Shown: positions 18,860-22,473 of the stretch, one piece after another
How positions within the stretch are numbered: the stretch's first letter is position 1
How the letters are laid out: each line of letters opens with the position of its first letter
Virus record (IMG/VR): IMGVR_UViG_3300042569_001009
Location: 1-27,204 of that record
Origin: a virus
Length of the DNA stretch: 27,204 bases
Strand: one strand, 5' to 3'
Notes under the pieces: generated by a model
What the model saw: the letters and a program-made list of their open reading frames with translations, nothing else
Told to the model about the DNA's origin: nothing
Databases searched by the model: none
Made by a program: the position numbers and the translations under genes

Positions 18860-19240
18860 TTTTTAGATGGTCGGAGATTTTGGGTAATGGGGGGGTTTCA
18901 CGCGAACGCTCGCAAAAGGAAAACGTTTTAGAAATCGACCGGGGGGTTGCCATTTCCAAAAGTTCGGCCAGGATTTTTGGCTTTTTGGTTTGGGCTGTCG
19001 GTCTGACGTTAGGTCGGTCATTCCGTGCGGTCGGTCGGTGGGTTGGTGTGCGTGTTGTGTGGGTAGGCAAGCCGTATTGATTCCGCGCCCATGTTATTGA
19101 TACCATACCCATCCCCTCGAGCGCTCGACCAATCGGTCGGTCAATCAATCAATCGGTCGGACGTTTTGCGCGGTTGCTCTGACGTGCGGAGGGGAGGGGT
19201 TACGTCTCCTGTAATTAATACCAATCAAACCGAATGCATT
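18860..19240. other. GC-rich non-coding island with CGGTCGG repeats
   Basis: About 380 bp without a credible gene, markedly more GC-rich than its surroundings. The plus strand is G/T-rich from about 18930 to 19075. CGGTCGG-type units recur: TCGGTC and GGTCGGTCGG near 19000-19050, AATCGGTCGG at 19131-19140 and again at 19151-19160 separated by TCAATCAATC. A 12-bp palindrome TCGAGCGCTCGA lies at 19117-19128. The island sits at the divergence of the two transcription arms. An origin, packaging site or regulator-binding array are all possible; nothing decides between them. Confidence 0.6.
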
Positions 19241-19296: not shown

Positions 19297-19374
19297 TTAT
19301 TCCGTGTTCAAACGTGTCTCCTTATTTAGAATGAATATAAATTAGCATTTATTTGAATATTTTTGTTGAAAATG

Positions 19375-19406
19375 TTTGCACAATCCAAATTGTTGACGTA
19401 TATTTG
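19375..19406 (+). promoter_or_regulatory. Full consensus Bacteroidota promoter (-33 TTTG, -7 TATATTTG)
   Basis: TTTG at 19375-19378 and TATATTTG at 19399-19406 are separated by 20 bp, matching the known Bacteroidota sigma-70 consensus TTTG-N19/20-TAnnTTTG. It is the only promoter in the window with both boxes well matched. Transcription should start at about 19411-19414, reading through a ~400 nt structured region into the right arm. Confidence 0.75.
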
Positions 19407-19409
19407 ATA

Positions 19410-19814
19410 CAAGCAAACGAGCTAAACATATCACTTGAGGTTACGATGACGAATCAGTATTCAAGTGGTAGATTGAAAAGATAAAGTTTTACTAAGCTCC
19501 TTTCGAGGAATAAGCCGGGGTAAAATGGTTCAAAGTAAATTAGTTTAGATAGCTTTATTAATGTTCATTGACTTAAGATATTATTTGAGACTAAAAGCGG
19601 TGCGGAGGTCGATACGATAACACAAATCTAGGACGAACCTAGGGCATGCGATACACTACTCAGGTGGTCGCATGTCGGAACCACGACTTAGGTCGTAGGG
19701 AATAAGAAGAGGGCCGGCGGTTTCACGCGGTCGGCAAATTTACCTCTAGCATGCTATGAGCACTTAATAGGAGCGAAACCTAGCTAGAGGACTAACCATT
19801 AAATCCAACTAACC
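19410..19814 (+). ncRNA. Structured RNA / long structured leader, unknown family
   Basis: About 400 nt between the strong promoter and the first early gene, with no credible ORF and many stems. They are TATCACTTGA/TCAAGTGGTA (19429-19438 with 19461-19470, one G-U); TCCT-UUCG-AGGA (19498-19509); CTAGG-ACGAA-CCTAG (19628-19642); GGCATGCGA/TCGCATGTC (19643-19651 with 19668-19676, one G-U) enclosing CAC/GTG; ACGAC-UUAG-GUCGU (19683-19696); GCCG-GCG/CGC-CGGC (19713-19735). Last is a three-way junction closed by CCTCTAGC/GCTAGAGG (19743-19750, 19783-19790) with inner TGCT/AGCA and TAGG/CCTA hairpins. It does not match tmRNA, RNase P or tRNA by eye. It could be a free phage ncRNA or a regulatory leader. 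The boundaries are approximate. Confidence 0.58.
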
Positions 19815-19925
19815 ATGGAAGCAAGAATCATCAGAATCGAGGGGCGCTATGAAATCATAGGCTTTTTTCAAGACGGCGTATTGGTACGCACTCGCAAATT
19901 ATTAATCCCTTTTAGAGCACGTTAA
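19815..19925 (+). CDS. Very small basic protein, first gene after the structured leader
   Basis: 36 aa: MEARIIRIEGRYEIIGFFQD, then GVLVRTRKLLIPFRAR. A beta-strand pattern (R-I-I-R-I-E-G-R-Y-E-I-I-G-F-F) suggests a small beta domain. Its ATG lies in a repeat of ACTAACCAT (19791-19799 and 19808-19816). It ends 2 nt before the next gene. No family is recognised; coding status rests on spacing and an in-phase open frame. Confidence 0.52.
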   Translation: MEARIIRIEGRYEIIGFFQDGVLVRTRKLLIPFRAR

Positions 19926-20286: not shown

Positions 20287-20493
20287 ATGACATCAGTAGA
20301 AAGAGATTTTATCAAAAGACTAAAGTTAGTCATCGACGACGCCAATGTAATCATTGAGCATCTAGAACAGGGGAAAGGTTTAGAAAATGACACTAAGCAT
20401 GGATCTACAATCTACACCCACTTAGACAACATTTCAATCGCGCTAGACTTAGGTAGCTATGAGCATTTGAAATGGAATTTATTCAAAGATTAG
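20287..20493 (+). CDS. Small helical early protein
   Basis: 68 aa: MTSVERDFIKRLKLVIDDAN, VIIEHLEQGKGLENDTKHGS, then TIYTHLDNISIALDLGSYEH. Two amphipathic helices joined by a polar loop. The start follows the segment TAGAAATTATG shared with other small genes here. No family is recognised. It is followed by a hairpin at 20541 that may end this transcript section. Confidence 0.66.
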   Translation: MTSVERDFIKRLKLVIDDANVIIEHLEQGKGLENDTKHGSTIYTHLDNISIALDLGSYEHLKWNLFKD

Positions 20494-20540
20494 CTGACGA
20501 GTATTCAGTATACGAAAACAATTAAATGAGGGTATCCTCA

Positions 20541-20561
20541 GCCCGCTCAGGCGGGTTTGTT
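20541..20561 (+). terminator. GC-rich hairpin, probable terminator
   Basis: CCCGC-TCAG-GCGGG (20542-20555) is a perfect 5-bp GC stem with a tetraloop followed by TTTGTT. It lies in the only gap (20494-20585) among the small genes. The T tract is interrupted by a G, so termination may be partial. Confidence 0.6.
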
Positions 20562-20585
20562 CCTAATCATTAAAACCTTTTAAAC

Positions 20586-21885: not shown

Positions 21886-22473
21886 ATGAACGCAGTAATC
21901 GAAGCCTTTTTAGTAGGCAAAAAAAGAAAACAAGGTAACGGCCAAACAGACGGCCGTTCGCTCTACCTATTCGGCAACCTTATCGCTGAACACCGCGAAG
22001 ACGGAATGTATGTATCGAATGCCGGCTGGCCAACCAGGACGACAAACAAATGGTTAAACATGCTACCTGATACTCGTGTATACTCACATAAAAAAACTCC
22101 TCACCTGAACGGCGAGAAATGGGACGGCGAGATGACAAAGGTAAACGACAACGTTCAGCCTGAGGCAAAGCATGTCGGCGAGATATTCGACATGACATGC
22201 GAGTACATTCGCTTAGACGGTTGGAGGGGATATTCAAAACCAATCTATTCAGTTCACATGGAACCGGACACAGGAGGGTGGGACGACAGTCCATATCCAA
22301 ACGCTCAGGCGTTGATCAAGGAAAAATTAGCTGAGCTAAAGGCTATAGGAATTCCGGCAAAAGTTGTAACATCTGAGACGTCAAACGTTTTCTGTGTAAA
22401 CCATTTCATTATTGTACCACCTAAATTTTATAACGATGCAACCACAAGACTTGAACTTCGAAACGTGGGATGA
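21886..22473 (+). CDS. Conserved phage protein of unknown function
   Basis: 195 aa. The N-terminal ~85 residues (MNAVIEAFLVGKKRKQGNGQ, SLYLFGNLIAEHREDGMYVS, NAGWPTRTTNKWLNMLPDTR, then HLNGEKWDGEM) follow a pattern common in phage early regions: A-F-L-x-G-K-x-R-K-x-G-N, L-Y-L-x-G-N-L-I-A, N-A-G-W, T-x-x-x-L-N-x-L-P, and L-N-G-x-x-W-D/N-G. The C-terminal half (EYIRLDGWRGYSKPIYSVHM, AELKAIGIPAKVVTSETSNV) looks like a second alpha/beta domain. Function unknown. Its start sits inside the upstream repeat array, so a repeat-binding protein could control it. Confidence 0.78.
   Translation: MNAVIEAFLVGKKRKQGNGQTDGRSLYLFGNLIAEHREDGMYVSNAGWPTRTTNKWLNMLPDTRVYSHKKTPHLNGEKWDGEMTKVNDNVQPEAKHVGEIFDMTCEYIRLDGWRGYSKPIYSVHMEPDTGGWDDSPYPNAQALIKEKLAELKAIGIPAKVVTSETSNVFCVNHFIIVPPKFYNDATTRLELRNVG

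Follow-up and report, generated by a model that had tools for sequence, protein, structure and literature searches.

At the divergence point between the minus- and plus-strand genes of a virus record in IMG/VR (IMGVR_UViG_3300042569_001009) lies a stretch of about 400 nt whose sequence looks like structured RNA. This raises the question of whether the phage makes such an RNA and, if so, what the RNA does. The window, by which we mean the whole 27 kb (27,204 nt) of DNA that was analysed, has portal, terminase, GroES-like and GroEL-like genes on the minus strand left of 18.6 kb, and a series of short genes on the plus strand starting at 19.8 kb. We call the plus-strand genes early because their content and position suggest it. 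TerL of the window phage shares 71% identity with its counterpart in an uncultured podovirus from Manatee Spring, ~44% with those of Flavobacterium phages of the elemo group and 33-39% with those of Cellulophaga and Tenacibaculum phages; a search for close relatives among deposited phages gave no nucleotide match. The divergence point also includes a repeat-rich intergenic stretch (18860-19190) with many CGGTCGGTC-like repeats, and similar repeats are present in the related phage L032.

The elements that we recognize at this locus are as follows.

19375-19406, plus strand: early promoter of Bacteroidota type, with -33 box TTTGCA at 19375-19380 and -7 box TATATTTG at 19399-19406 (from sequence, pattern and conserved position)
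19411-19425, plus strand: conserved 5' end of the RNA, AAGCAAACGAGCTAA, nearly invariant in 16 of 16 aligned leaders and degenerate in L051 and L062
19432-19467, plus strand: hairpin 1 of the 5' domain, 19432-19437/19462-19467 with inner helix 19442-19447/19453-19459 (covariation)
19471-19541, plus strand: closing helix of the 5' domain, 19471-19474/19538-19541 (covariation)
19486-19492/19520-19526, plus strand: helix inside the closing helix (covariation)
19496-19498/19513-19515 and 19499-19501/19506-19508, plus strand: UUCG hairpin, also inside the closing helix (covariation)
19563-19572, plus strand: boxA core GTTCATTGAC (GTTCWTTGACATATTG in relatives), matching the boxA found beside 16S and 23S in Bacteroidota rrn operons
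19589-19623, plus strand: type A pseudoknot-like element, 19589-19592/19607-19610, with putative pairing of loop 19600-19602 to 19621-19623
19628-19642, plus strand: type A core hairpin CTAGG-ACGAA-CCTAG, invariant in 11 type A phages and so without covariation signal
19643-19676, plus strand: core hairpin 1, apical TACAYTACTCRGGTGG nearly invariant (94.9% paired, two-sided changes at 6 pairs)
19680-19700, plus strand: core hairpin 2 (two-sided changes at 6 pairs)
19713-19735, plus strand: core hairpin 3, apical GTTTMACGYG conserved (100% paired, two-sided changes at 6 of 7 pairs)
19743-19790, plus strand: 3' three-way junction, loops ATGA and AGCGANA and linker TTNA conserved (99.1% paired)
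19815-19925, plus strand: gene for a 36-aa basic protein, MEARIIRIEGRYEIIGFFQDGVLVRTRKLLIPFRAR, present in 24 of 26 phages and the first conserved ORF downstream of the RNA

In the promoter, the TTG at 19376 is followed after 20 nt by the -7 box, whose position suggests a transcription start near 19411. The same promoter stands upstream of the leaders of 15 related phages (16 aligned leaders including that of the window). The original prediction described it as the only promoter here with both boxes at 20-bp spacing. The promoter itself is well founded, but it is not the only candidate, as the window holds 11 matches to the pattern TTG-N17-23-TAnnTTTG; according to the list of ORFs, most of the others fall inside genes. 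Upstream of the promoter, at about 19319-19348, CTTATTTAGAATGAATATAAATTAGCAT is strongly conserved and partly palindromic, and it occupies the same place in most relatives. It is possibly the site of a host regulator; one Sphingobacterium genome contained a handful of near matches, little above the control.

We are nearly certain that 19411-19790 specifies a real structured RNA of ~380 nt that is transcribed rightward. When compared with shuffled controls, the 404 nt from 19411 to 19814 folded far better than expected (-114.1 kcal/mol versus -91.3 +/- 4.4; z = -5.14; 0 of 100 shuffles were as good), whereas the minus strand of the same interval gave z = -1.68. Conserved G-U pairs fix the plus strand as the RNA strand. 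The leader contains no conserved ORF, and the longest overlapping frame (43 aa) has its start upstream of the -7 box, in keeping with the earlier statement that the region holds no credible reading frame. This RNA represents a family absent from Rfam. At the gathering threshold there was no match; at E <= 10 there were only two chance snoRNA matches, neither on the body of the element; and ARAGORN called neither a tRNA nor a tmRNA on it. The impression that it is not a tmRNA, RNase P RNA or tRNA, and that it belongs to no recognisable family, was therefore correct.

Strong compensatory changes were found in the related leaders. Together with the fold, they bear out the prediction of ~400 nt of structured RNA before the early genes, including the three structures that had been singled out from the sequence, namely a stem at 19429-19470, a UUCG hairpin (19496-19515) and the three-way junction, all of which are present with compensatory changes. 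Hairpin 1 of the 5' domain shows two-sided, pair-keeping changes at 9 of its 11 pairs, and its inner helix is 100% paired. Across the whole 5' domain, 94.4% of cells in 18 phages are paired and 20 of 28 pairs have two-sided changes; the core hairpins are paired in 94.2% of cells in 26 phages; and in 15 distinct sequences of the three-way junction, two-sided changes occur at 13 of 15 pairs. Measured against shuffles, a control that ignores kinship among the leaders, two-sided changes numbered 83 versus 24.6 in the 5' domain, 114 versus 32.3 +/- 4.2 in the core hairpins and 45 cells versus 10.1 in the junction. Sliding the partner strand of the core hairpins by 1-3 columns reduced pairing to 26-39%; this second control allows for kinship, and it leans in favour of the structures as they were read from the same sequences. 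The fold is best supported by the number of independent pair types and by several stems that exist in two widely different versions; a stem of the junction, for one, occurs both as CTCTAGC/GCTAGAG and as GGTGCAG/CTGCACC.

Two interchangeable pseudoknot-like elements, type A and type B, are found between boxA and the core hairpins. The window carries type A, the sequence of which is too conserved for covariation to decide its pairing. In type B (11 rows) the stems are well supported and the pseudoknot strand is nearly invariant; the putative pseudoknot pairs themselves are mostly invariant.

The set of leaders was gathered in three ways. The early protein encoded at 21886-22473, used as a query, led to 28 loci; the core hairpin pattern picked out 33 stretches, of which some are chance matches; and a third pattern scan added L183 and L186. 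After duplicates were removed there were 26 distinct leaders, or 28 counting two divergent ones. At least 26 related phages conserve the predicted fold, which stands first in the early operon, and the leaders of some phages contain modular insertions of ~150 nt. R1, a covariance model built from the core, found exactly one copy per phage in each of 13 phage records that were searched whole. The core pattern was not found in genome contigs, where it was sought as prophage or host copies, and R1 had no match in the three Bacteroidota genomes to which it was applied. Nor did R1 match the isolates MW202828 and elemoA, the first 50 kb of phi38:1 or 43 kb of phi46:3. This suggests that the core is limited to one phage group; boxA leaders seem to be spread more widely.

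The boxA is the feature that connects these leaders with their hosts. Most relatives carry the full motif GTTC(A/T)TTGACATATTG between the 5' domain and the core, and type A phages have only its first ten bases. Judged by its sequence, this motif is the boxA of Bacteroidota rRNA operons. In bacterial contigs, rRNA landmarks accompanied 59 of 81 sites with the exact 18-mer AGTTCTTTGACATATTGG among the matches listed; the rRNA-linked sites among them lay mostly 56-295 nt before the start of 23S, and the named hosts among these matches were mostly Bacteroidota. Related motifs (GTTCTTTGAAA and similar) precede 16S in 10 of 34 leaders under a strict pattern. In the window, the full motif is absent even when 3 mismatches are allowed, and the core alone is present. 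As the window contains four copies of the 9-nt core GTTCWTTRA, the match is weak by itself, and we call it boxA from its homologous position in relatives, not from its own score. BoxA is degenerate or lost in L032, L051, L062 and L011. Apart from boxA, comparison of the leader with rrn operons gave short chance matches only. We therefore rejected a broader mimicry of rRNA; boxA is the only clear resemblance. The leader, like an rRNA transcript, is untranslated and structured, with the core GTTCWTTRA in the window and the full motif in relatives, but the rest of it is unrelated to rrn sequence and it precedes mRNA genes.

Sites resembling boxA are also found in the early leaders of more distant phages that have no recognisable core, namely phi46:3, phi38:1 and MW202828. 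In phi38:1, GTTCTTTAA lies downstream of a promoter-like site. Two further phages, phi13:2 and Gundel_1, were examined after the idea had been formed, and both early leaders have a boxA-like site shortly past the promoter; the phi13:2 leader is close to that of phi46:3, which brings the pair closer to a single independent success than to two. No boxA was found in the early leader of elemoA. On MW202828.1, an annotated CDS (43480-43803, minus strand) lies opposite the early leader with the boxA-like site and overlaps it; this CDS is probably not a gene.

Phages appear to use boxA on other untranslated transcripts as well, because a tRNA follows within 313 nt on the same strand at 44 of 73 distinct boxA sites in phage contigs (61 of 365 random windows had a tRNA, counted on either strand). 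Many phage contigs of the IMG/VR set L205-L281 have the boxA motif AGTTCWTTGACATATTG before tRNA arrays. The other 29 of the 73 sites precede something else, and some of these resemble other untranslated leaders.

Downstream of the core, the leaders end in alternative 3' modules: the three-way junction in most phages, a hammerhead ribozyme or a tRNA-like T-arm hairpin in others. In L032 and L035, a hammerhead core directly after hairpin 3 replaces the junction, and two more hammerheads follow further on, one of which scored 26.5 bits with the Rfam type III model, below the cut-off. The early leader of elemoA has a type III hammerhead at its end (36.3 bits, E 1.3e-5, again below the cut-off). 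A T-loop hairpin (UUCGAUU or UUCGACU), closed by an additional stem, is present in L040, L051 and L062; ARAGORN did not call these hairpins tRNAs, and the three-way junction follows in L040 and L051 and was not found in L062. Gundel_1 has a comparable tRNA-like element. As consensus matches, the hammerhead and T-arm modules are candidate cleavage elements. At the 3' end of the window RNA, neither a ribozyme nor a T-arm was found. A hammerhead identity for its covarying junction was rejected: the core nucleotides CUGANGA and GAAA are absent, and the linkers of the junction are 0, TTNA and 0.

In all, hammerhead cores are spread over the early operons of these phages, several of them between early genes: at ~897, 1479 and 1655 in L032, at 17341 and 19112 in L199 (elemoA), at 2921 in L040 and at 3183 in L051, all on the minus strand of their records. 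One of those in elemoA stands immediately before the first start codon. In the window, a candidate hammerhead lies between two early genes (20488-20568, plus strand; GAUUAG-CUGACGA-stem II-GAAA-stem III AACAA/UUGUU-C-CUAAUC). It is conserved in L004, L007 and L029, the stem III extension shows compensatory changes, and it had no Rfam hammerhead match at E <= 10. Hammerhead ribozymes flanking phage genes have been described before (PMC3088659).

We propose a model, which we hold with roughly even confidence, in which 19411-19790 is the 5' untranslated leader of the early operon and acts through boxA-dependent antitermination. Host RNA polymerase would start at the early promoter and make the leader. 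Once boxA (19563) appears in the growing transcript, host NusB-S10 together with further Nus factors would bind it, just as they do in rRNA operons. The polymerase so equipped would become resistant to termination and could then pass through ~400 nt that are not translated and on through the series of short early genes. The folded body of the leader (5' domain, pseudoknot-like element, three hairpins and junction) may dock on the complex of polymerase and Nus factors and stabilize the resistant state. The 3' module would insulate the leader from the mRNA or, in some phages, cut it off. We infer Nus binding and antitermination here from the established role of boxA in rRNA operons and in lambda and from the put RNA (PMC9378689); the part assigned to the folded body is likewise our reading of the structure.

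Two observations tilt the evidence towards a leader. First, ~25 nt separate the 3' end of the RNA from the first start codon, and neither a terminator nor a promoter was seen in this gap; by sequence, this puts the RNA upstream of the operon on the same predicted transcript. Second, a host-type boxA is present. Several points count against antitermination. The early region has few intrinsic terminators on its plus strand that would make antitermination necessary, boxA is lost or degenerate in some members and reduced to its core in the window, and the RNA is much larger than put or nut. In addition, a ribozyme after the core, as in L032, would sever the RNA from the polymerase and is ill suited to a tethered antiterminator.

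That the RNA is so large, that some members have lost boxA and that cleavage modules occur all speaks instead for a processed stable RNA. It is conceivable, if somewhat unlikely, that the element is a stand-alone ncRNA that acts in trans, shares the early promoter and is released by processing at its 3' module; boxA would then merely keep polymerase on a long untranslated transcript, as it does before rRNA and phage tRNAs. The ribozyme and T-arm modules of relatives keep this option alive, since the hammerhead swap in L032 and L035 and the T-arm hairpin in L040, L051 and L062 suggest 3' processing, and the complexity of the RNA, its ~150-nt insertions and the use of boxA on phage tRNA arrays point the same way. 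However, the window RNA runs into the first gene and has no such module, its position is the head of the early operon and not the vicinity of tRNA islands, and it has no known trans target. The leader and the stable RNA are not mutually exclusive, and the leader RNA is possibly also released as a stable RNA.

We consider it improbable that the RNA is instead a regulatory leader for the translation or stability of the early mRNA, whether as a riboswitch-like sensor or as a site for the 36-aa protein in autoregulation. The RNA does precede the first gene, and the 36-aa ORF, in which differences fall mostly at third codon positions (1347/1007/3664), comes next in 24 of 26 phages. However, several phages have other ORFs inserted between the RNA and the 36-aa gene, the structure stops short of the start codon region with no alternative terminator or anti-start hairpin to be seen, and two alternative pseudoknot-like elements speak against a single small-molecule pocket. 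Finally, a conserved DNA function that only resembles RNA, such as a replication origin or packaging site, is suggested by the adjoining repeat-rich region at the divergence point, but it is already disfavoured and scarcely credible, because G-U pairs persist at positions that hardly vary, folding is much better on the plus than on the minus strand, and pairing is retained where both partners have changed.

How does the leader compare with known systems? RNA-mediated antitermination is well known from lambdoid phages. Lambda nut sites likewise rely on boxA, and nutL is followed first by a gene for a small basic protein. The put RNA of HK022, which lies just downstream of an early promoter and suppresses termination, is ~70 nt long and has two stem-loops (PMC9378689). 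The leader described here resembles put and nut in being structured and cis-encoded, directly after an early promoter and at the head of the early operon. It differs in its ~380 nt, its some ten helices and the Bacteroidota-type boxA of relatives, and its antitermination activity is our proposal; on size and helix count, we rejected an identity with put. As a large modular phage RNA with complex secondary structure, it also recalls GOLLD and ROOL. Many GOLLD RNAs exceed 800 nt and their linkers may hold tRNAs, the ROOL studied was 659 nt, and both are often found near tRNA islands (PMC12286853). The leader heads an early operon, so the resemblance is in character, not in sequence or place, and neither covariance model matched at the gathering threshold or at E <= 10.

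A small search of the open-access literature found no description of this leader RNA or of boxA leaders or RNA antitermination in Bacteroidota phages. What is new here is the presence of the boxA of Bacteroidota rRNA operons in most of these phage early leaders. A covarying ~380-nt RNA with a host-type boxA at the head of an early operon is a defined, testable element. Cultured hosts exist for isolates with boxA leaders (Cellulophaga phages phi46:3, phi13:2 and phi38:1 and Tenacibaculum phage Gundel_1), so a test of the boxA part is already feasible. The family is also a large structured RNA missing from Rfam, with natural exchange of modules that include ribozymes. We tentatively suggest that large phage RNAs may include a new class formed by these leaders, modular and pseudoknotted, which would use boxA to attract host transcription factors of the rRNA type, then be detached by interchangeable 3' modules (three-way junction, hammerhead or T-arm hairpin) and serve as a stable RNA in early takeover, and that the arrangement of promoter, boxA, structured leader and first gene might be general in Bacteroidota phages.
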